Below are positions 230 to 9,646 of a stretch of DNA of 9,646 nucleotides, in pieces. The notes below the pieces were generated by a model. It worked only from the letters and a program-made list of their open reading frames with translations. It was not told where the DNA came from and searched no databases. Within the stretch, counting starts at the first letter, position 1. Every line of letters starts with the position of its first letter. The stretch comes from Chloroflexota bacterium (GTDB lineage: Bacteria > Chloroflexota > Dehalococcoidia > UBA1151): positions 1-9,646 of the forward strand of contig JADFQR010000029.1 of NCBI GenBank assembly GCA_022561735.1, given 5' to 3'. The position numbers were made by a program, and so were the translations under genes.

Positions 230-1078
230 CTACTCGTGATACCCCTTGTAGCCCTCTGGCGTTGACGGGCCGTGCTCATGCCCCGGGGTGATGCCGTCGC
301 GCTCCGCCGCCGCCTCGGCGCTGCCCTCTGGCACCCAGCCGAGCACATCGGCTCCGTGCTCGATCTCCCGCCATCGCCACCTGTTGTTTGAGATAGCGTT
401 AAAAGCGTCATACATCAGGTCGTCCGGCGCGCTGATACAGCGGTCGATCATGTCGATAGCGTCCATCTGGTCCAGGAAGCCCGGCCAGATACCGCGAACG
501 TGAGGACGATTCTCCTCCAGTACCCCGCCGAGCTTGATGACCATAGAAGAGATGCCGTGCAGGTCGGCGTAAAGCCTCCCGATGTGCTCCCCGTACAACT
601 TCGCGACACCGTACGGGTTGTTCGGGTAAGGCCCGTCCTCGATCGTGATCATTCGCCACTCGGTCGGGAAATCCGGGTCGTCCTCCCGCATGTTTGCCAG
701 CTTCCAGTAAGGCTGATTGCGGTCAAACATGTACCCCAGTTGCGTGTTGCCGGAGCTCATGAACACCACGCGCTTCACCCCGGCCTCCCGCGCCGCCTCG
801 TACACATTCAGCGTCCCCCGCATCGTGATCGCCATCGTCGGCTCCCACAACTCCGTCAATCCGGCCGTTGCCGCCGCCAGGTGGAGTACCGTGTGCACAC
901 CCTCGAACGCTGGCTTGATGGCCTCAGCGTCGGTGATGTCCGCCTGCAGGCTCGGAATCGTGTCAACATGCCGGCGTGCAAGCCCGGTCAAATCGAACTT
1001 GTCGCCGAGGTGTTCGATCACGAGCCCGCCGATCAAGCCGCTCGCGCCGGTTATCAGGACTTTTTTCTTGTCAGCCAA
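230..1078 (-). CDS. NAD-dependent epimerase/dehydratase, uronate-dehydrogenase-like
   Basis: This is a 282-aa extended short-chain dehydrogenase, presumably a cytosolic NAD(P)-dependent oxidoreductase or epimerase acting on a sugar or sugar acid. An N-terminal Rossmann motif GASGLIG sits at residues 11-17. There is an acidic stretch ADITD near residues 46-50, a core Ser pair at 108-109 (FMSSGN) and the catalytic YGVAK (Tyr156, Lys160). The C-terminal segment FNAISNNRWRWREIEHGADV and the following GWVP resemble uronate dehydrogenases, which oxidise uronic acids to aldarolactones, but the substrate cannot be read from sequence. The frame is open to 1162, but TTG at 1078-1076 is preferred: GGAG lies 8 nt upstream and the Rossmann strand starts directly after it. 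The gene diverges from the ThDP enzyme gene across a repeat-bearing spacer. Family assignment is confident; function is not. Confidence 0.85.
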   Translation of the reverse strand: MADKKKVLITGASGLIGGLVIEHLGDKFDLTGLARRHVDTIPSLQADITDAEAIKPAFEGVHTVLHLAAATAGLTELWEPTMAITMRGTLNVYEAAREAGVKRVVFMSSGNTQLGYMFDRNQPYWKLANMREDDPDFPTEWRMITIEDGPYPNNPYGVAKLYGEHIGRLYADLHGISSMVIKLGGVLEENRPHVRGIWPGFLDQMDAIDMIDRCISAPDDLMYDAFNAISNNRWRWREIEHGADVLGWVPEGSAEAAAERDGITPGHEHGPSTPEGYKGYHE

Positions 1079-1086
1079 TGCTGGTC

Positions 1087-1090
1087 TCCG
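1087..1090 (-). promoter_or_regulatory. Ribosome binding site deciding a TTG start
   Basis: On the minus strand GGAG lies 8 nt before TTG (1078-1076). No comparable site precedes the upstream ATG at 1162, so the TTG is taken as the epimerase start. Confidence 0.6.
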
Positions 1091-1168
1091 TTCATGCAAT
1101 GTTCGAGGGTGGCCGGTAGGGTAGGGCGCGGCGCCGGCGGTTTCAAGGACGGAGGGGCGCATGCCGAT

Positions 1169-1226
1169 GGTCCTTCGAGAGCCTCAGGACGCTTGAGCGA
1201 GGGCCTTGGGACGCTTGTGCGAGGGC
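1169..1226 (+). repeat. 58-bp direct repeat, copy 1
   Basis: The copy begins GGTCCTTCGAGAGCCTCAGG and contains two degenerate sub-units of the form GGACGCTTGNGCGAGGGC. It matches copy 2 at 1293-1350 at 52 of 58 positions; the first 27 bases are identical. The core CCTTCGAGAGCCTCAGGACG recalls a widespread environmental-genome intergenic motif (ccttcgacaggctcaggacg). That link is from memory. Confidence 0.8.
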
Positions 1227-1239
1227 TTTATGTCGCTGA

Positions 1240-1268
1240 TTGAAAGCGGAGACTTCGACAAATGTAGG
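1240..1268 (+). promoter_or_regulatory. Weak candidate promoter between repeat copies
   Basis: TTGAAA at 1240-1245 matches a sigma-70 -35 box at 5 of 6 bases. It is followed after 17 nt by TGTAGG (1263-1268), a poor -10 (3 of 6). It lies in the spacer between the two direct repeats and would drive the ThDP enzyme gene with a leader of roughly 140 nt. This is a guess from pattern only. Confidence 0.2.
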
Positions 1269-1292
1269 GACGGATTGGTATCCGCCCGCCGG

Positions 1293-1350
1293 GGTCCTTC
1301 GAGAGCCTCAGGACGCTTGTGCGAGGGCCTCAGGACGCTTGGGCGAGAAC
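1293..1350 (+). repeat. 58-bp direct repeat, copy 2
   Basis: This is the second copy of the element at 1169-1226, starting 124 nt downstream in the same orientation, with six differences all in the second half. A further partial CTCAGGACGCG follows at about 1350-1360, giving five occurrences of the GGACGC core in under 200 bp. Confidence 0.8.
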
Positions 1351-1404
1351 TCAGGACGCGGTCGAGAACCGCGGGGCGCTCAGGCTAGAGGATCAGGAAA
1401 CGTC

Positions 1405-1413
1405 AAGGGGGTG
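1405..1413 (+). promoter_or_regulatory. Strong ribosome binding site deciding a TTG start
   Basis: AAGGGGGTG nearly matches the anti-Shine-Dalgarno complement. Its G-run ends 6 nt before TTG at 1418 but 15 nt before the in-frame ATG at 1427. TTG is therefore preferred as the start. Confidence 0.6.
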
Positions 1414-1417
1414 ACGA

Positions 1418-3055
1418 TTGACCGAAATGACCGGCGGACATGCTGTCGTGCAGCAGCTCGTGGCGGAGGGCGTGGACACCGTGTTCGCCGTCCCCGGCAT
1501 GCAGGTCATGCACATCTATGACGGCTTTCTTGAAGCGCCGGGCATCAACCTGATCACATGCCGCCACGAGCAGACGGCCGTATTTGCCGCAGATGGCTAC
1601 GCCCGCACCCGCGGCGTGCCCGGTGTGGCGCTCATCGTGCCCGGACCCGGTGCGTACAACGCAGGCGCAGCGATGGCGACCGCGATGGCCGGAAACTCGC
1701 CGGTGCTGCTCATCTCGGGCCAGATCGCCAGCCATGAACTGTATGGCGGCCGTGGCTCGCTCCACGAGATCAACGACCAGCTTGAGTTCATGGCCCCGGT
1801 GACCAAATGGCGGCAGCGGACCGGGTCAGCAGACGAGATCCCGGGACTGATCCACGAAGCGTTCAGGCAGCTCAAGACCGGGCGTCCGCAGCCGGTCGAG
1901 GTCGAGGTCCCGCACGACTTTCTCGCCGAAAGACAGGACTTCGAAATCATCGGGCGCGAGGAGTACCCACGCCCGGACGTTCCAGCGGACCACGTATCCA
2001 GCGCAGCGGACATACTGGCGGAGGCGACGCGCCCGCTCATCTGGGTCGGTGACGGCGTAGTGAGGGCCGGCGCATCCGGCGAACTGGAGCGGATGGCCAC
2101 CGCGCTCGGCGCGCCGGTCCTGCACAGCCGTGACGCCCAGGGCGCGCTGCCGGACCCTCACCCCCTGGCCTTTGAAGTCCCATCGCCGGGCTACGGAGAT
2201 CCGGCCACCGAGGACCTGCTACGGGCCGCGGACGTGATACTGGTCGTGGGCAGCCGATTCGCCCGCTCAGAGACGTCACGATGGGACCTTTCGGCGGATC
2301 AGCGGCTCTTGCATATCGACATCGACCCCGCCATCCCGGGTGAGTCGTACAACCCTGTCGTGTCGATCGTGGGAGACGCCCGCGTCGCGCTTGCCGCGCT
2401 CAACAGCGCCCTTGAAACACGCGCGTTCAACTCCGGATGGGACCCGGATATGCTGGCGGAGGTTCATGGCCGGCGCAGGACATTGTTGAGGCTTAAATAT
2501 CCCGAGCAGGTGCGGGCGTTCGAGAAACTCCGCTACCTTCTGCCTGACAACACCGTCATCGTTGGCGGCGTGACCGTGGGAAGCCGGTGGATGGGCTCTG
2601 CATTTGACATCCTGCAGCCCGGCACCCTCACATCCGCCTCCTACATGACCACCCTCGGCTACGCCTTCCCGCTCGCCCTGGGTGTGAAGGCCGGAAGCCC
2701 GGACCGGCCGGTGATAGCGCTGTGCGGTGACGGCGGGTTCTCGTACGCGATCGGCGACCTCGCAACCGCGGTGCAGCACCGCATCAATCTCGTCATCGTC
2801 CTGTTCAACAACGGAAAGTACGGCGCATCGCAGAACGACCAGATGCACGGCCGTTTTGGCGGACGCGTCATCGGGACCGACCTCGTCAACCCGGACTTCG
2901 TCGGACTCGCAGAATCGTTCGGGGTCGTGGGCGTCCGGGTCAATAAGCTGCACGATCTCCCGGCTGCCATTTCTGATGCGACAGCCGCCGGACAGCCCGT
3001 CCTTATCGACGTGGTCGGAGATGCCATGCGGGCGCTGGACCATGTTGACATCTGA
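1418..3055 (+). CDS. ThDP-dependent enzyme, acetolactate synthase-like
   Basis: This 545-aa protein belongs to the acetolactate synthase/benzoylformate decarboxylase superfamily, which decarboxylates or ligates 2-oxo acids with thiamine diphosphate (ThDP). The N-terminal PYR domain (about 1-170) carries the catalytic glutamate Glu51 in RHEQTAVFAADGYART, then PGPGAYNA. A central Rossmann-like domain spans about 190-330. The C-terminal PP domain has the ThDP/Mg motif GDG at 437-439 with paired Asn 464-465 about 25 residues later. Length fits the catalytic subunit of acetolactate synthase, but no regulatory small subunit (ilvN/ilvH) is adjacent and ilvC is absent. A catabolic relative is therefore as likely as biosynthetic IlvB, and the substrate cannot be assigned. 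It is followed by a co-directional flavin disulfide reductase after 130 nt. The start is TTG at 1418; ATG at 1427 is the alternative. Confidence 0.9.
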   Translation: MTEMTGGHAVVQQLVAEGVDTVFAVPGMQVMHIYDGFLEAPGINLITCRHEQTAVFAADGYARTRGVPGVALIVPGPGAYNAGAAMATAMAGNSPVLLISGQIASHELYGGRGSLHEINDQLEFMAPVTKWRQRTGSADEIPGLIHEAFRQLKTGRPQPVEVEVPHDFLAERQDFEIIGREEYPRPDVPADHVSSAADILAEATRPLIWVGDGVVRAGASGELERMATALGAPVLHSRDAQGALPDPHPLAFEVPSPGYGDPATEDLLRAADVILVVGSRFARSETSRWDLSADQRLLHIDIDPAIPGESYNPVVSIVGDARVALAALNSALETRAFNSGWDPDMLAEVHGRRRTLLRLKYPEQVRAFEKLRYLLPDNTVIVGGVTVGSRWMGSAFDILQPGTLTSASYMTTLGYAFPLALGVKAGSPDRPVIALCGDGGFSYAIGDLATAVQHRINLVIVLFNNGKYGASQNDQMHGRFGGRVIGTDLVNPDFVGLAESFGVVGVRVNKLHDLPAAISDATAAGQPVLIDVVGDAMRALDHVDI

Positions 3056-3139
3056 AACCGGCCGCACCTGAAAAACCGGACCGGCATCGGAATTACACGG
3101 GATAGCGACGCAGAAACGCGCATCCGCGCTTCCGGCCCC

Positions 3140-3156
3140 GCTTCTCGGGGAGAAGC
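3140..3156 (+). other. Small hairpin upstream of the flavoprotein gene
   Basis: GCTTCTC (3140-3146) and GAGAAGC (3150-3156) pair perfectly around a GGG loop. A competing pairing CCCCG/CGGGG (3136-3140 with 3146-3150) overlaps it. No T-run follows, so it is a poor terminator. It ends 16 nt before the ribosome binding site and might affect translation of the next gene. Confidence 0.35.
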
Positions 3157-3172
3157 ACCAGCGCCATCACAC

Positions 3173-3178
3173 AAGGGG
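3173..3178 (+). promoter_or_regulatory. Ribosome binding site for a GTG start
   Basis: AAGGGG ends 7 nt before GTG at 3186. The following residues begin directly with the FAD-binding strand (KNYDLLIIGSG), so the start is well supported. Confidence 0.65.
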
Positions 3179-3185
3179 ACTCTCT

Positions 3186-4550
3186 GTGAAGAACTACGAC
3201 CTGTTGATAATCGGTTCCGGATCCTCCGGCACACTTCCGGAAGCGGCGATTAACCGCGGCGAGACCGTGGCGGTCGTGGAGCCCAACAGCTGGGGCGGCA
3301 CCTGCGTGAACGTCGGCTGTATACCGTCCAAGATGCTCATCTACGCGGCGGAGGCCGCTGATGCCGTTAATCACGGCGACTACTACGGCATCAAGGCCCA
3401 TATCGATCACATCGACTGGAGCCGGGTCGTCGGGCGGGTTAACGAAAAACTTTCGCCGATGTGGGACGGCATCACCGCCTGGTATCACGATTACGATGGC
3501 CTGACCCCGTACGATGGCGCCGCACGTTTCATCAGCGACCGGGTTGTCGAGGTCAACGGGGAGCAGATAACCGGGGACAAGATCGTCATCGCGGCCGGAA
3601 GCCGGCCCTTCATCCCGCCGATCCCCGGGCTCAGCGGCGTCCCGTACCTGACCTCTAACGAGGCGCTCTACCTGGACAAACAGCCGGAGAGCCTGGTCGT
3701 CATTGGCGGCGGGTACATCGGCGCCGAGCTTGGCCACTACTTCAGTGCGCTGGGCACGGAGTTGACCATCATCGACATGGCCCCCGAGATGCTGATGATC
3801 GAAGACTCGGAGGTGCGGGCCAGGTTCACGGAGGCGTTCAGGGCGAAGTCGAACACGAGACTGGTGATGGGCGCTGCCGTGAAGTCGGTTAGCGGAGACG
3901 AAAACGGCGTGACGGTGACGCTGGAAGTTGACGGCAAAGAGCAGACGGTTTCGGCTGAGAAAATCCTGATCGCCACGGGACGCCGCCCGAACACCGACAT
4001 TCTCGGCATGGATCAGACCGGGATTCAGTGCGACACGATTCATCGCATCACGGTCAACGAGCACATGGAAACGAACGTAGATAACATCTGGGCGCTGGGC
4101 GATATCACAGACACGCCCCCGCTCAAGCACGTCGCCAACATGGAGGCCCGGATCGTCCGGCACAACCTGTGGGCCAACGGAAATGAGCGGATGTCCGCTG
4201 ACTACCACGGCATCCCGCACGCCGTGTTCTCGTCTCCCCAGGTCGGCTCGGTCGGACTGACAGAGGACCAGTTGAAGGACGAGGGCGTTTCGTACACGGC
4301 CATCACCCGCAGTTACGGCTCCACTGCGTGGGGGTGGGCGATTGGCGACGAGGATAGCTTCGCTAAACTCCTGGTGGGCGAGGATCGCAAGATCCTGGGA
4401 GCCCACATCGTGGGCCCCTCCGCCTCCATACTCGTCCAGGAGTTCGCCACGCCGATGCGCCTCGGGCTAACCGTGGACCAGATGAAGGAAGCTATCTACA
4501 TCCACCCGGCGGCAAGCGAGTTGATAGAAAACACCTTCCTGGACGCATAA
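3186..4550 (+). CDS. Flavin disulfide reductase, mycothione reductase-like
   Basis: This 454-aa class I pyridine nucleotide-disulfide oxidoreductase should be a cytosolic FAD homodimer passing electrons between NAD(P)H and a disulfide. Visible parts are the FAD motif GSGSSG (10-15), the redox-active pair Cys40/Cys45 in GGTCVNVGCIPSK, the NAD(P) motif GGGYIGAE (174-181), ATGRRPN (263-269), a second FAD contact near ALGDI, and a C-terminal dimerisation domain with His440 and Glu445 (HPAASE). Several stretches (YGIKAHIDHIDWSRVVGRV, LKHVANMEARIVRHNL, AWGWAIGDEDSFAKLL) recall actinobacterial mycothione reductase more than dihydrolipoamide dehydrogenase or mercuric reductase. No mycothiol-synthesis or 2-oxoacid dehydrogenase E2 gene is in the window. 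It follows the ThDP gene by 130 nt in the same direction. The substrate disulfide is unknown, so no gene symbol is given. Confidence 0.88.
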   Translation: MKNYDLLIIGSGSSGTLPEAAINRGETVAVVEPNSWGGTCVNVGCIPSKMLIYAAEAADAVNHGDYYGIKAHIDHIDWSRVVGRVNEKLSPMWDGITAWYHDYDGLTPYDGAARFISDRVVEVNGEQITGDKIVIAAGSRPFIPPIPGLSGVPYLTSNEALYLDKQPESLVVIGGGYIGAELGHYFSALGTELTIIDMAPEMLMIEDSEVRARFTEAFRAKSNTRLVMGAAVKSVSGDENGVTVTLEVDGKEQTVSAEKILIATGRRPNTDILGMDQTGIQCDTIHRITVNEHMETNVDNIWALGDITDTPPLKHVANMEARIVRHNLWANGNERMSADYHGIPHAVFSSPQVGSVGLTEDQLKDEGVSYTAITRSYGSTAWGWAIGDEDSFAKLLVGEDRKILGAHIVGPSASILVQEFATPMRLGLTVDQMKEAIYIHPAASELIENTFLDA

Positions 4551-4561
4551 GGGCCTGGCAT

Positions 4562-4576
4562 CCCCGCGTTCCGGGG
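4562..4576 (+). terminator. Weak hairpin after the flavoprotein gene
   Basis: CCCCG (4562-4566) pairs with CGGGG (4572-4576) around a five-base loop, 11 nt after the stop codon. There is no T-tract, so it is a weak candidate for transcript end processing rather than a convincing intrinsic terminator. Confidence 0.3.
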
Positions 4577-4634
4577 CCTCAAAGGACCGCGTCCCGACCA
4601 ACTCGCATGAGCAGGCGATACCTCATACAACGAG

Positions 4635-4706
4635 AGTCTCAGGGGGCGGAATGCCACGCTTCCTGAGACTTTCAACGTACACCCCTCAAGGGTTCGCTCC
4701 GCCCCC
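4635..4706 (+). promoter_or_regulatory. Structured leader with interlocking pairings
   Basis: Two perfect 9-bp pairings interlock here. AGTCTCAGG (4635-4643) pairs with CCTGAGACT (4662-4670). GGGGGCGGA (4642-4650) pairs with TCCGCCCCC (4698-4706). The order A-B-A'-B' means they either form an H-type pseudoknot, if A is shortened by two pairs, or compete as alternative folds. A small ACCC/GGGT hairpin (4681-4693) lies in the last loop. The region sits 139 nt before the GTG of the M20 gene. It could be a cis-regulatory RNA, a DNA-level palindrome, or chance in GC-rich sequence; it matches no riboswitch class I recognise. Confidence 0.4.
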
Positions 4707-4831
4707 CGTACTCCCTGATCCTTGACCGGCCATAACATGTGCCCACCGGCCAAAGGTCGGACCCGGCCTGCTCCCGAGCTGTGTTGTCGACGCAGGAAAT
4801 GGCGGGCCGATGTCTGGCGATGGCGATACAT

Positions 4832-4837
4832 AAGGAG
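4832..4837 (+). promoter_or_regulatory. Ribosome binding site deciding a GTG start
   Basis: AAGGAG ends 7 nt before GTG at 4845. The frame is open further upstream (an ATG-like start could be drawn near 4722), but the extra 41 residues are Arg/Cys/Pro-rich and unlike the family, so 4845 is chosen. Confidence 0.8.
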
Positions 4838-4844
4838 TAACAGC

Positions 4845-6173
4845 GTGGACACCGATCTACAGAAGGCGCTTGACGCGCTCTCGCGCGATGACGTCATCAA
4901 GCTGACGCGCGACGTCATAGACATCCCCAGTCCGATGGGCGGCGAGAAGGCTCTAGCCGATTTCCTGGCTGTCCGATTCAGGGAGCTGGGCGTCGATGTC
5001 ATGGTGCAGGAAGTCGAACCCGGCCGTCCCAACGTGATCGCGACCTATAAGGGCACGGGCGGTGGTGCGTCACTCATGCTGTTCGGCCACATGGACACGA
5101 CCTGGGCCGGTGATGAGGAGGGTGTTCGTGAGCTGGGCCCGGGATACCAGCCGTCCTCGTACATGGAAGGCGACTGGATCTACGGCGCGGGCGCATACAA
5201 CATGAAGAGCGGCCTCGCCTCGGCGATCGCAGCGTTCGAGGCGATCGTACGGTCCGGGGTCAGGCTGGCTGGAGACCTGATCATGGCCTGCGTCGTTGGC
5301 GAGACCTGCCACACGCAAATCGGCCGCTACCAGGGCGCACGTTATCGAGGTTGCGGCGTCGGCGCGAGCTTCATGGTCGGCAACGGCGTTTCAGCGGATA
5401 TGGCGGTCTGCCCGGAGCCCACGTCCGGCCGAGTTTCCATAGCGTCCGGCGGCTATGTTTACTTTGAGATCAAGATCACCGGCAATCCGGGCGCGACCTA
5501 CGCGCGGGGCGGCGACGAGATTCAGGTGAAACCCGCTGTAGACGCAATAGAGAAATCCCAGCACATCCTGGCCGCGATCAGGGACTGGGCGCCCGGGTAC
5601 AAGCAAGCTCACCTTTACCGCGGGCAGGAAGCGACCAATGTAGCTGTCGTCGCCATGGAGGCCGGCCACCCGTGGCGACCCACCAAGCTCGCACCGTTCT
5701 CGCGGATCTACCTGGAGGTCGACACCGTGCCGGGCCAGCGCGTGATAGATGTCGTGCGAGAAGTCGAAGCGCTGATGGAAGACTGCCGTACCAGGGACCC
5801 TGAACTTGACCTTGACCTGAAGGTTATCCAGACTCCGGACGGCGCGGAAGTTGCTGAGGACGAGTACGTCGTGGGCGCTATGTCGCGCGCCCATAGCGCG
5901 GTCCACGGAAACGCACCAGAGGTGACGTTTGACTCATGGGTCGCAGACACCGCGACGATGATCCGCGCCGGCATACCGGCGATCTGTTACGGGCCGGCCG
6001 GCCGCTCGGCATTCGGCGGTTCGGGCTACTACCCGGTCGAGGGCGAGCACGCCAACGCAGACGACCTCTACAAGGGCTCGCAGGTCTACATCCACCTCGC
6101 GCTTGAGGCCTGCAACCTGCCCCGGGAACAACTGCGGGAACACCGGGAACAACCGGCCCGGCGCGCGCTCTAG
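4845..6173 (+). CDS. M20-family metallohydrolase with altered metal-site residue
   Basis: This 442-aa protein has the M20 (ArgE/DapE/carboxypeptidase G2) fold, a family of cytosolic di-zinc amidohydrolases acting on peptides or N-acyl amino acids. The metal site can be followed through GHMDTT (His82, Asp84), GAGAYNMKSG (residue 119), GETCHTQIG (Glu153), PEPT (Glu191) and GEHANADD (His402). At 119 the usual bridging aspartate of GxGxxDMKG is Asn (codon AAC), and the usual paired Glu-Glu is a single Glu followed by Thr-Cys. From memory, an M20 subgroup with NMK and GE-type motifs exists, so this may be a subfamily trait. The segment around 210-330 fits the dimerisation domain. The C-terminus ends in a Glu/Arg-rich tail (REQLREHREQPARRAL) encoded by three GGGAACA repeats. 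The substrate is unknown. It is third in the plus-strand series, 294 nt after the flavoprotein gene. Confidence 0.85.
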   Translation: MDTDLQKALDALSRDDVIKLTRDVIDIPSPMGGEKALADFLAVRFRELGVDVMVQEVEPGRPNVIATYKGTGGGASLMLFGHMDTTWAGDEEGVRELGPGYQPSSYMEGDWIYGAGAYNMKSGLASAIAAFEAIVRSGVRLAGDLIMACVVGETCHTQIGRYQGARYRGCGVGASFMVGNGVSADMAVCPEPTSGRVSIASGGYVYFEIKITGNPGATYARGGDEIQVKPAVDAIEKSQHILAAIRDWAPGYKQAHLYRGQEATNVAVVAMEAGHPWRPTKLAPFSRIYLEVDTVPGQRVIDVVREVEALMEDCRTRDPELDLDLKVIQTPDGAEVAEDEYVVGAMSRAHSAVHGNAPEVTFDSWVADTATMIRAGIPAICYGPAGRSAFGGSGYYPVEGEHANADDLYKGSQVYIHLALEACNLPREQLREHREQPARRAL

Positions 6174-6196
6174 CGTGACCGGAGACGGCGTCCGGC

Positions 6197-6210
6197 GCTC
6201 CTGGCGGAGC
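6197..6210 (+). terminator. Weak hairpin after the M20 gene
   Basis: GCTCC and GGAGC pair around a TGGC loop, 23 nt after the stop codon. An alternative CTGGC/GCCAG pairing overlaps. No T-run follows, so support as a terminator is low. Confidence 0.25.
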
Positions 6211-6302
6211 CAGTAATGGCGGACCGCGCTGAACAGGCGGACGCGCCCCCGCAACGTTAAGCGAACGGCCCATGCGCTGAACCTGCCCCGGCACAGCCCG
6301 TG

Positions 6303-6342
6303 CGTTGAGCCCGTCCTGAGTGAGCCCGTCGCAGGATGAACG
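6303..6342. repeat. REP-like imperfect palindrome
   Basis: CGTT (6303-6306) and TCCTG (6314-6318) pair with CAGGA (6332-6336) and AACG (6339-6342). GAGCCCGTC occurs twice (6307-6315, 6322-6330). The composition and order recall a dispersed environmental-genome element read as cgttcatccttcgacaagct in the opposite orientation, and share TCCTGAG/CTCAGGA with the repeats at 1169-1350. Membership in one dispersed family is inferred. Confidence 0.45.
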
Positions 6343-6349
6343 AGTGCTC

Positions 6350-6403
6350 CCGCCGGGTAACCGTGCGGATCGGCGACAAAACTCGGAGACCTGTTACCGG
6401 CGG
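6350..6403 (+). repeat. Inverted repeat upstream of the archaellin-like gene
   Basis: CCGCCGGGTAAC (6350-6361) is the reverse complement of GTTACCGGCGG (6393-6403) except for one bulged G. The loop is 31 nt. It lies about 350 nt before the archaellin-like start. It could form a stable RNA or DNA hairpin; its role is unknown. Confidence 0.5.
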
Positions 6404-6744
6404 TTCCGGCCAACGAACAGCCAGTTTTCTTTCACACCCATCAGACGGGACTTCCGCTCATCCGGGGTTCGCAATGTAAATGCCCGGGGTCCATATCCGC
6501 CCCAACATCGGCGTCGGCCGAGGCAACCCGGGGACACCACGGGCGTCAATTAGTCGAAGCGATAACCGGGCACGCGTGGCGACAACTCGCGGCGCAGCGC
6601 AGCGGCCATTGGAGCGTCCTCAGTAGATGGGCGTTTCACCCGGCCTTAGTGTGTTGGATATCACTTCTCACCGCAATTTCCGGCCAGAACCCTGTGTGTG
6701 TTTTGGCGGCGGTATAGCAGAGGTCGTACAGCGACCCCAAGATC

Positions 6745-6749
6745 AAAGG
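6745..6749 (+). promoter_or_regulatory. Ribosome binding site deciding between two ATGs
   Basis: AAAGG lies 9 nt before ATG at 6759 and only 3 nt before ATG at 6753. The second ATG is preferred, which removes two residues (Met-Trp) from the signal peptide. Confidence 0.5.
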
Positions 6750-6758
6750 TCAATGTGG

Positions 6759-7466
6759 ATGTATAAGCTAACTAGCGATCGGGCCGGGGCGCAGCGGGGA
6801 ATCACGGGGCTTGAAACCGCGATCATCCTGATAGCGTTCGTCGTGGTCGCATCGGTATTCGCGTTCACCGTCCTCTCGACGGGTATCTTCTCCTCCGAGA
6901 GAAGCAAAGAGACCGTGTTCGCGGGTCTGGACGAAGTCCGTAGCTCGCTCGAGCCACGCGGCAGCGTCATCGCCTACAAGGGCCGGGTCGGCGCCGGTTC
7001 CAGCTTTGACACTATCTACAAGATAGTCTTCATCGTCTCCAACGCCGTCAAGGGCGAGCCGGTGAACCTGACCCCGCCGTACACGTCGAACGGCGCGGGC
7101 GATGATCCGGACATCGTCGCCGGCGCAAAGTACAGGATGGTCATTTCCTACTCTGACAATGACCAGTTCCTGAACGACCTTCCGTGGACGGTCACATTCC
7201 CGGGATACGACAACGGCGACAACCTTCTGGACGCCGGTGAAAAAGCCGAGATCGCTGTCTGGTTGTTTGACCGGGACAACAATGTGACGAACGCCGCGGA
7301 CGACAACGGGGTCAAAGTGAGCAGCACCGGCGGTCTCACCAGCGCATCCACGATCCCGAGTGTAAACGACAGGTTCGTACTTGAGGTCAAGCCCGAGACA
7401 GGCGCCACCCTCAACATCGAGCGCACCCTGCCGGGCAGGCTCGACATGATCATGGACCTTCGTTAG
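6759..7466 (+). CDS. Archaellin-like (archaeal-type flagellin) protein
   Basis: This 235-aa protein is predicted to be secreted and assembled into a surface filament. The N-terminus is a class III (type IV pilin-like) signal: a basic leader ending QRG, predicted prepilin-peptidase cleavage after Gly14, then ITGLE with Glu at +5, then a hydrophobic helix (about 15-39; ETAIILIAFVVVASVFAF). The remainder is a beta-rich, Cys-free domain with archaellin landmarks: LLDAGEKAEI (156-165) and, near the end, FVLEVKPETGATLNIERTLP followed by MDL. These features match archaeal FlaB/ArlB more than bacterial type IV pilins or true flagellins. No motor, ATPase or peptidase gene is in the window, so it stands alone here. 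Its 3' end is followed by strong hairpins. Its role could be an archaellum-like swimming filament or an adhesive pilus. An open frame reaches upstream to 6627 but lacks a ribosome binding site. Confidence 0.87.
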   Translation: MYKLTSDRAGAQRGITGLETAIILIAFVVVASVFAFTVLSTGIFSSERSKETVFAGLDEVRSSLEPRGSVIAYKGRVGAGSSFDTIYKIVFIVSNAVKGEPVNLTPPYTSNGAGDDPDIVAGAKYRMVISYSDNDQFLNDLPWTVTFPGYDNGDNLLDAGEKAEIAVWLFDRDNNVTNAADDNGVKVSSTGGLTSASTIPSVNDRFVLEVKPETGATLNIERTLPGRLDMIMDLR

Positions 7467-7498
7467 TCAATACCTCTGACTCACGCGAGTAAAAATCA

Positions 7499-7531
7499 GG
7501 TGGGCGGTCCAGGCGGGGACCGCTCACCTTT
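7499..7531 (+). terminator. Intrinsic terminator of the archaellin-like gene
   Basis: GGTGGGCGGTCC (7499-7510) pairs with GGACCGCTCACC (7517-7528) over 12 pairs, one of them G-U, with a six-base loop followed by TTT. It starts 33 nt after the stop codon. Confidence 0.75.
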
Positions 7532-7553
7532 CGTGTCCGGTGCGCCGCCCGCA

Positions 7554-7589
7554 TGAAAAGCCCCCGGTCGTATGATCGGGGGCTTTTCA
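7554..7589. terminator. Bidirectional intrinsic terminator
   Basis: TGAAAAGCCCCCGGTC (7554-7569) pairs with GATCGGGGGCTTTTCA (7574-7589): 16 pairs, one G-U, with a GTAT loop. The A-run on the left and T-run on the right let it work for both strands. It sits between the convergent archaellin-like and zinc-ribbon genes. Confidence 0.85.
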
Positions 7590-7592
7590 GAT

Positions 7593-7627
7593 GTGCCGGA
7601 GTAGGAGCGGTGCTCTTCTTCCGGCAC
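7593..7627. other. Third hairpin in the convergent spacer
   Basis: GTGCCGGA (7593-7600) and TCCGGCAC (7620-7627) form a perfect 8-bp outer stem. AGGAGC (7603-7608) and GCTCTT (7612-7617) form an inner stem with one G-U. The two stems are separated by a symmetric 2x2 internal loop. There is no T-run. It lies only 3 nt from the preceding terminator and 34 nt from the 3' end of the zinc-ribbon gene. Confidence 0.55.
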
Positions 7628-7661
7628 CCCTTGAGGAGGAAGGGCCGTTATCGGGTACCGG

Positions 7662-7874
7662 TCAGGCAGCCTCTTGAGACGGCCCGGCGCTTACATCGCC
7701 GGTCCGGTCCGCCGCCATAACCGGTAAGGGTTCGTTATACCTGCCAACCCTGCCGTACATCCGGGCGTAAAGCGTCCAGGAACAGCTGAGGCACTGCAGG
7801 TACGATCCATTGGAGTCGCGACGCGCCTCCACCGTGCCGGTTGAGCAGTGCGGGCATGAGTTGAACCACAACAT
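7662..7874 (-). CDS. Small zinc-ribbon protein
   Basis: This is a 70-aa protein of unknown function. The N-terminal half has two knuckles, CPHC (7-10) and CLSC (28-31), spaced as in a single treble-clef or zinc-ribbon site, with aromatic residues around them (WF at 3-4, Tyr25, Trp33). The C-terminal half is polar and probably disordered. On the minus strand GAGGA ends 6 nt before the ATG, which supports a real gene. It lies downstream of ilvD in the same direction, 259 nt away with a hairpin between, so it probably has its own promoter. It ends facing the archaellin-like gene across shared terminators. Roles in nucleic-acid or protein binding are possible but not shown. Confidence 0.72.
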   Translation of the reverse strand: MLWFNSCPHCSTGTVEARRDSNGSYLQCLSCSWTLYARMYGRVGRYNEPLPVMAADRTGDVSAGPSQEAA

Positions 7875-7963
7875 TTTCGGTCCTCTTCCAGATCTTCGCC
7901 CCTGTTTTTCAGGGTTTTCCAGGCTGTTTCCGTGGCGCCAGCGGGTCTGGCTGCACTACATAT

Positions 7964-8006
7964 GATGACGGTCGGATATGAAGGGTTCATGAATGAATCC
8001 GTCATC
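7964..8006. repeat. Nested inverted repeat upstream of the zinc-ribbon gene
   Basis: GATGACGG (7964-7971) pairs with CCGTCATC (7999-8006). Inside it ATGAA (7978-7982) pairs with TTCAT (7986-7990) around GGG. The element is about 90 nt upstream of the zinc-ribbon start and could be an operator or a hairpin in its leader. Confidence 0.45.
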
Positions 8007-8099
8007 CTGTGAGAGGTATATGAGGAAGGGCGCGCGGGTAGCGCGAGTAACTGAAATCGGCCTCAAACGGCAGTTTCACGGCCGGATATGTCACCGGAA

Positions 8100-8123
8100 G
8101 GCCGGGCGGAAATTCGCCCGGCC
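8100..8123 (-). terminator. GC-rich hairpin downstream of ilvD
   Basis: GGCCGGGCG (8100-8108) and CGCCCGGCC (8115-8123) form a perfect 9-bp stem with a six-base loop, 10 nt past the ilvD stop. On the minus strand only TT follows, so it is a strong hairpin but an imperfect intrinsic terminator. Confidence 0.6.
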
Positions 8124-8133
8124 GCATCGAGCT

Positions 8134-9646
8134 TCAGCTGGTGATGGCGCCCTTCGCCGCCGGCTGCACCAGCTTGATGTACTTGCCGAGCGTGCCCCGG
8201 GTGTAGGCGGCCGGCGGCGCAGTCCATCTGGACAAACGGTCGTCCAGTTCTTCCTTGCTGATCTTGACGTTCAACTCAAATCGCTCCAGGTCGAGCTCGA
8301 TAACGTCACCATCGCGCAGCGCTGCTATCGGTCCTCCAAGCGCCGCCTCCGGGCCGACATGCCCGATCATCGGGCCGTGCGTGGCGCCGGAGAACCGTCC
8401 GTCCGTCATCAAGAAAACGTCCTCGCCGAGCCCCTGGCCGACGATAGCGCTGGTCACGTCAAGCATCTCCCGCATCCCGGGCCCGCCCTTTGGCCCCTCG
8501 TACCGGATCACGACAAAGTCGCCCTTCTTTATGGACCGCTGCTGTAGCGCCTCCATCACGAGTTCCTCGCGGTCAAAAACTCGCGCCGGCCCGCTCCAGC
8601 GGGCCCCGTATTGATGCCCGGCCACCTTCAGCACCGCCCCGTCCGGCGCCAGGTTGCCGTGCAGCACCACAAGTCCGCCGGTACGCGACAACGGGTCGTC
8701 GGCCGTTCTTATGACCTCCATCTGTGACCCGTCGTCGTGTACATCCGCAAGGTTCTCTGCGATCGTTTTTCCGGTCACCGTGAGTGCGTCACCGTGGAGC
8801 AGTCCGGCGTCCAGCAGCCGCTTCATCACCAGCGGTATTCCGCCGGCGCGGTCCAGGTCAAACATCAGGTATCTTCCGGCCGGTTTCATGTCTGCGATAA
8901 GCGGCGTGCGCATGCTGATGGCGTGGATGTCTTCCAGCGTGAGCTCCATACCCATTTCGTAAGCGATGGCCGGGAGGTGCAGCGCCGTGTTGGTTGACCC
9001 GCCCAGCGCGACCACGAGCGTCACTGCGTTCTCGAACGCTTTGCGCGTCAGGATGTCGGACGGTCGGATGTCCTCCCGGAGCAGATTCATGACCGCCTCT
9101 CCGGCGCGCCGTGACGAGTCCCGTTTGCGGCTGGAAACCGCCGGTTCCGACGCCGACCCCGGAAGCGACAACCCGAGCGCTTCGCCGATGCTGGACATTG
9201 TGTTGGCGGTGAACATGCCGCCGCATGCGCCGGGCCCGGGACAGGCAGCGATCTCCATGGCGCGCAATTCCGCATCATCCAGCTCCCCGACCTGGTACCT
9301 GCCGACGGCCTCCGCCACGTCCTGGATCTGGAACGGTTTCCCCTCCCAGTAGCCGGGCATGATAGAGCCGCCGTACACGAACACCGCCGGGATGTTGAGG
9401 CGCGCTATCGCCATCATCGAGCCCGGCAGGGACTTGTCGCACCCGGCTATCGGCACGACGCCGTCGAACCGTTCTGCGAAACACACGGTTTCTATCGAGT
9501 CAGCGATGATCTCCCGGCTCACGAGAGAGCCTTTCATTCCTTCGGTGCCCATCGAGATCGCGTCGGACACGGTTATCGTGCCGAACATGAAGGGCGTGCC
9601 CGCAGCCTGGGAGACCCCGCGCTTGACCTCGTCCACAAGCGGAGCG
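8134..9646 (-). CDS. ilvD: Dihydroxy-acid dehydratase IlvD, 5' end cut by window
   Basis: This iron-sulfur dehydratase converts 2,3-dihydroxy-isovalerate (or -3-methylvalerate) to the 2-oxo acid in valine and isoleucine synthesis. The visible part covers about 503 residues. The family is usually near 560, so roughly the first 60 are beyond the right edge; the frame runs open through 9646 as [10 protein letters not shown]. Visible landmarks are [16 protein letters not shown], cluster ligand Cys in AGCDKS (codon 9439-9441), a second ligand in [15 protein letters not shown] (codon 9223-9225), GGSTNT, and [10 protein letters not shown] with the active-site serine (about 8372-8403). The 72-residue spacing of the two cysteines fits the family; the first ligand Cys would be in the missing part. 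Sugar-acid dehydratases (EDD-type) are close relatives, but these motifs favour true IlvD. The C-terminus is complete. Confidence 0.93.

Follow-up and report, generated by a model that had tools for sequence, protein, structure and literature searches.

Archaellum genes are no novelty in Chloroflexota. For the SAR202 bacterium Candidatus Lucifugimonas marina, Lim et al. (2023; PMC10444878) reported six flaB genes in tandem and another six in scattered positions; according to the same report no archaella were seen in the cultivated SAR202 cells, and its archaellum section does not analyse the scattered copies one by one. A working archaellum was described in the Chloroflexota species Litorilinea aerophila by Sivabalasarma et al. 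(2025; PMC12488501), whose account of the archaellin also includes a metal site made of D121, D127, E131 and E134. On the archaeal side, the archaellin ecoparalogues of Haloarcula marismortui are described as having salt-dependent expression (PMC6528647). As scattered SAR202 archaellin genes are already in print, an archaellin copy lying apart on a chromosome of this kind is largely ordinary and of low surprise. New here are the conserved locus of such a copy, a dN/dS of about 0.2, the remnants of the gene in one relative and an apparent exchange with the archaellin array in another; in a literature search that covered no preprints and few subscription papers, we found no printed account of individual scattered archaellin loci.

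The whole stretch of DNA analysed (9646 nt, ‘the window’) carries a pre-archaellin gene (ArlB/FlaB-like) at 6759–7466 of the forward strand, with ATG at 6759 and stop codon at 7464–7466, encoding 235 amino acids plus stop. Features of the gene and its flanks are the following:

6174–6758, forward strand: leader or intergenic stretch of 585 nt, from the M20 peptidase stop to the archaellin start (sequence)
6745–6749, forward strand: Shine-Dalgarno-like AAAGG, 9 nt ahead of the ATG (sequence)
6759–6800, forward strand: class III signal peptide MYKLTSDRAGAQRG, with predicted cut G14|I15
6801–6950, forward strand: N-terminal core helix region, mature residues 1–50 (predicted helix 3–35, helix identity, dN 0)
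6951–7463, forward strand: exposed beta domain, mature residues 51–221 (strands in the predicted model)
7209–7241, forward strand: acidic loop DNGDNLLDAGE, probable metal site (alignment to 9i5h)
7498–7529, forward strand: terminator-like hairpin with 13-nt arms, 92% complementary (inverted repeat I3)
7554–7589, no strand assigned: hairpin with 16-nt arms, 94% complementary, with A/T-rich arm ends (inverted repeat I1)

The encoded protein scored 73.8 bits with Pfam family PF01917 (Arch_flagellin; cut-off 29.5), along profile positions 1–162 of 162. No other Pfam family reached E 1e-3; at this threshold neither bacterial pilin profiles (type IV, Flp-Tad) nor the N- and C-terminal domains of bacterial flagellin were matched. 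Among NCBIfam models, the archaellin N-terminal model TIGR02537 scored 28.5 bits (cut-off 20), and a second flagellin model matched with a score far under its cut-off. The five solved structures matched all bear the name flagellin or probable flagellin, and chain 9i5h ranked first among them (E 1.1e-34). Bacterial type IV pilins carry the N-terminal motif GFTLxE; unlike them, the window protein reads GITGLE, and QRG|ITGLE, the hydrophobic helix and the C-terminal signature LEVKPETGATLNIERTLP are all present in it. G14 and I15-T16-G17 were invariant across 22 aligned archaellin sequences, and in the alignment chain 9i5h begins at the Ile homologous to the predicted cleavage residue of the window protein; both observations are consistent with a class III signal peptide predicted to be cut before the hydrophobic helix. 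The initial annotation had read the two termini as those of an archaellin rather than of a bacterial flagellin or pilin, and had pointed to PF01917; the profile search confirmed the family, with no bacterial pilin profile at E 1e-3 or better, and we regard the gene as a genuine archaellin gene of known kind on a bacterial contig.

The predicted fold agrees with this assignment. In a model built from 94 sequences, with a mean pLDDT of 85, residues 3–35 form an N-terminal helix and a C-terminal beta domain follows; the model replaced an earlier one from 22 sequences with mean pLDDT 53, which was discarded. In the alignment to 9i5h, by manual count, the acidic loop DNGDNLLDAGE faces D127, E131 and E134 of the L. 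aerophila metal site, with D121 opposite a gap, and is probably a metal site as well. Judging by its start residue and residue numbering, 9i5h is probably the archaellin of the bacterium L. aerophila: the metal-site residues given in PMC12488501 fall on acidic residues of the chain (manual count). The structure-search output gives no organism for 9i5h, and the main text of PMC12488501 does not contain this term.

The initial annotation had also taken the surroundings to be bacterial and had guessed at Chloroflexota; both points were upheld by the alignments. About 6.8 of the 9.6 kb of the window (blocks 235–1070, 3021–4552, 4833–6147 and 6560–9646) aligned at 80–88% to one contig of the Chloroflexi MAG JACZRO01, the closest of the genomes compared (hereafter G004). 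There the archaellin lies between the same neighbours, in the order M20, archaellin, ilvD seen in the window, with blocks 235–1070 and 3021–4552 inverted; for DNA at 7900–9646, the best match among seven genomes was G004 (86%, full length). An archaeal origin of the contig was ruled out on this ground, the block 1427–3020, unmatched in G004, aligning to another relative, G002 (76% over 1427–4553). Plasmid or phage origin was rejected as well, there being no tblastn match at E 1e-5 in either collection. Every one of the 34 archaellin loci that a scan of genome contigs gave came from a record with Chloroflexi, Dehalococcoidia or Candidatus Lucifugimonas marina in its title, and a protein 99% identical to the window archaellin is encoded on a 3.3-kb contig. 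From kinship with Ca. Lucifugimonas (G001, one of 60 relatives listed around G002) we infer that the host is a marine Chloroflexota bacterium close to SAR202.

In a further relative, G003, the archaellin adjoins the same M20 gene, and the contig stops short of any ilvD. The G002 locus ahead of ilvD consists of ∼121 bases of the M20 3′ part and ∼111 bases of the archaellin 3′-end. Given the synteny in G004 and G003 and the remnants in G002, the sequences compared indicate that the locus is an old, shared one, with loss in one lineage (G002). The decayed remnants sit in the syntenic place at L103, about 6496–6781.

The enzymes around the archaellin gene (window 230–6173 and 8134–9645) were assigned by Pfam as an NAD-dependent epimerase family member, a TPP enzyme, a pyridine nucleotide-disulphide oxidoreductase, the M20 peptidase and an IlvD/Edd family dehydratase; the latter has second, more distant matches in G012 and G002. 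A small ORF at 7662–7874 (reverse strand) matched neither Pfam nor NCBIfam at E 1e-3 and shows, by eye, a zinc-ribbon-like pattern CPHC...CLSC; its 5′ part is covered by 7765–8053, a stretch of DNA that G002 shares at 70% identity.

In the mechanical ORF list the archaellin frame starts at 6627. We placed the start at 6759, because this ATG aligned with an ATG in the two syntenic relatives, G004 and G003 (three-way alignment), and has AAAGG ahead of it; in both relatives AAGG was seen by eye in the alignment ∼10 nt ahead of the ATG. The leader matched the syntenic G004 stretch with 73% identity over 247 columns, a match that ends at the cleavage codon and takes in the 42-nt signal peptide part. 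The promoter scan found no sigma-70 promoter in the leader. The claim of the initial annotation that the gene has its own long leader and terminators stood as to the leader and was only partly supported as to the terminators, since the two hairpins downstream are there and the terminator scan, which required a T-run, listed neither of them. The hairpin at 7554–7589 is a possible bidirectional terminator between convergent genes, and a hairpin resembling it is visible by eye at the decayed G002 locus. Rfam gave no match within the window at gathering scores. With respect to a promoter or RNA element common to archaellin leaders, single-sequence folds of nine leaders shared nothing across all nine, and three array leaders had a hairpin in common by eye. 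Such an element was rejected: the upstream blocks with the strongest conservation proved to be either a tRNA-Gln gene, at another scattered locus, or the 3′ terminus of the array gene that comes before. In four genomes (L140, L144, L149 and L151) a scattered archaellin lies ∼300 nt after an opposite-strand tRNA-Gln gene with TTG anticodon.

The window protein was compared with the archaellins of the arrays. G003, G004 and G012 have three array archaellins each, and in every one of these genomes two of the three have mature residues 1–50 identical to those of the window protein; outside this region the same six copies are 63–72% identical to the window protein. Identity in the helix region was 94, 94 and 86% for the third array copies of G004, G003 and G012, respectively, and 90–98% for the four array copies of G002. 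Two classes of archaellins are divergent here and may be specialised: the head-of-operon class (37–40% identical) and the class of L141, L145 and L152 (60–66%). For mature residues 1–50 we found dN of 0 against the syntenic copies of both G004 and G003, with dS about 1.0 against G004. Over the mature gene, dN/dS was 0.21 against the G004 copy and 0.19 against the G003 copy, and for the beta domain 0.31 against the G004 copy; these pairwise Nei-Gojobori values (own script) are rough at such dS. The gene shows signs of purifying selection.

For G004, the suggested assembly by a machine whose genes lie elsewhere is borne out, the arl genes standing together on another contig. The order on contig C140 (L130) is divergent head archaellin, a gene in arlCDE position, an ArlG-like gene, two ArlF/G-like genes, ArlH, ArlI and ArlJ; both this operon and the single A24 peptidase of the genome sit on contigs other than the archaellin's. 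ArlH passed the FlaH subfamily model NF004723 (256, cut-off 194) and stayed under the cut-off of the equivalog model NF052589 (197.6, cut-off 215); ArlI scored 638 against NF058587 (cut-off 550), and ArlJ reached 372 bits, under its cut-off of 570. Scores for the ArlG and ArlF models were far under cut-offs, the gene in arlCDE position had no Pfam match, and PF04659 (ArlD/E) was not matched in 12 genomes; the ArlG-, ArlF- and arlCDE-like names are given by gene order.

At E 1e-20, ArlI was found in eight of the 60 relatives of G002, all eight being among the 19 relatives with archaellin matches; in 11 of these 19 it was not found at this threshold. In G002 and G012 the contig breaks off within the arlCDE-like gene that follows the head archaellin, so absence of ArlI in these genomes is best read as an assembly break, and loss of the machine was rejected for those two alone. 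No T2SSE ATPase over the cut-off was seen in five of 13 archaellin-bearing genomes (G002, G003, G007, G012 and G065); the G003 contig ends inside a pilB-like gene. Among 12 chosen genomes, the A24 peptidase was present in seven of eight archaellin-bearing ones, with one gene in each of the seven, and in none of the four archaellin-free ones. In G004 it shares a contig with a PilB-like T2SSE ATPase and prepilin-like genes (N-termini judged by eye); therefore, one peptidase probably serves both the archaellum and the pilus systems. Among 10 chosen genomes CheW was seen in five of seven archaellin-bearing and none of three archaellin-free ones. The archaeal adaptor CheF was found in 0 of 7 genomes; its absence is likewise stated for the phylum in Sivabalasarma et al. 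(2025; PMC12488501). To judge from the relatives, the species of the window would have both the ArlH/I/J machine and an A24 peptidase.

The G003 copy at the shared locus was 90.4% identical over 695 nt to one array copy of the same genome, a stretch that begins ∼8 nt ahead of the cleavage codon and runs ∼5 nt beyond the end of the mature coding part. Flanks of this pair were unmatched, save a 45-nt 78% match out of register, the 3′ flank of the locus copy being 64 nt long up to the contig end. Its match to the G004 partner, at 82%, begins ∼78 nt ahead of the cleavage codon and extends through the flank on the 3′ side. In a tree whose bootstrap had not settled, the G003 array copy fell inside the group of G004 and G003 locus copies (99/96; with G004 98/83). 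This looks like one exchange between the scattered copy and the array in G003, apparently after the G003/G004 split. The same tree placed the window protein beside a G002 array copy (95/99), apart from its syntenic partners; in aligned nucleotides the window was about equally close to the G004 partner (78.3%) and to the G002 array copy (77.8%). Of 44 rows, two were left out of the tree: a false hit of the motif used to collect sequences, and a G003 copy with an open frame ending at 152 residues. That motif missed the G002 remnant and the G001 copy of 34% identity.

We then have the survey of 95 copies from 14 sources including the window (copies of G007, G009, G011 and G040 were taken in part). 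Out of 62 copies outside the eight labelled arrays, 33 were nearest to a copy of another genome with shared upstream sequence; 13, with the window copy among them, to a copy of another genome without it; 10 to a non-array copy of their own genome and four to their own array; two had no match. A general cassette model is unsupported by these copies. Copy G002_L143, with 87% identity to its own array and 83% to the best match outside it, may be a second exchange case, but it runs up to the end of its contig and its upstream sequence recurs in array copies, so that it is itself perhaps an array member. The scattered archaellins L135 and L138 of G001 look like recent duplicates (93% in coding sequence, 96% over 578 nt upstream).

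We think it likely that the window gene is one of several archaellin paralogues and makes an extra, interchangeable archaellum subunit by way of a machine encoded elsewhere. The gene would probably form its own transcription unit; the A24 prepilin peptidase of the cell would cleave its product between G14 and I15, and the ArlI/ArlJ machine would feed the subunit into the archaellum filament. As its core helix can take the place of that of the main array archaellins, the subunit is most likely built into the filament together with them or in their stead, in which case just the outer face of the filament would change; use of the scattered subunit may be regulated.

The initial annotation had offered an adhesive filament instead. 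One could imagine such a separate, non-rotating filament to be built by the bacterial type IV pilus machine with its PilB-like ATPase, as the archaellin gene stands alone and the one A24 peptidase of G004 has that ATPase and prepilin-like N-termini on its contig. However, a helix region identical to that of six array archaellins argues against it, as do the archaellin-type N-terminus and C-terminal signature and the best solved relative being an archaellin; our analysis gave this alternative no support, and we consider it improbable. Still less probable is that the scattered copies serve mainly as silent sequence donors recombining into the expressed array and altering the filament surface. 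The G003 pair is in line with such a role (90.4% over 695 nt to the array copy versus 84% to the G004 partner, and the array copy inside the locus group of the tree at 99/96 and 98/83), and G002_L143 would be a second case if it is not an array member. Yet four of the 62 non-array copies were nearest to their own array, against 33 nearest to another genome's copy with shared upstream sequence, and in the window copy the start, the ribosome site and the signal peptide motif are all intact, with dN/dS about 0.2. The gene could also be a relic on its way out, its use ended; the G002 locus, with its ∼111 bases of archaellin beside ∼121 bases of M20, shows such an outcome, but the open frame, the strong helix conservation and the dN/dS values against both syntenic copies leave this reading an equally slim chance.

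An extra, interchangeable subunit thus remains our preferred reading. A wider proposal, that a conserved, separately placed set of archaellins re-coats a horizontally acquired archaellum through selective expression and occasional exchange with the array, is speculative and rather unlikely. If true, re-coating could help, for instance, in evading phages or in dealing with different surfaces; in haloarchaea, a switch of archaellins has been proposed to act against viruses (PMC6011602). In any case, archaellin genes of a marine Chloroflexota group occupy shared, conserved places outside the arl cluster and are not stray contamination, which poses a testable question: why does a bacterium with a borrowed archaeal propeller keep many versions of the filament subunit?

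With the Haloarcula marismortui system, as described, the window has in common several archaellins per cell, and that system is a model for alternative subunits; unlike the window, it is archaeal. The ArlB of L. aerophila aligns with the window protein in the helix, in the C-terminal signature and at three of the four positions of the metal site; the bacterium is a more distant member of the Chloroflexota, of class Caldilineae according to the reference list of PMC12488501. Nearest is Ca. L. marina. In G001 we counted six tandem and six scattered archaellin genes plus a distant seventh at 34% identity, in agreement with Lim et al. (2023). Its scattered copies differ from the window protein (34–62% identical), and none adjoins the best ilvD match at 791 kb; its array copies are 62–64% identical to the window protein where matched, and it is alike in having the same family, the scattered arrangement and a genome with an arl cluster.
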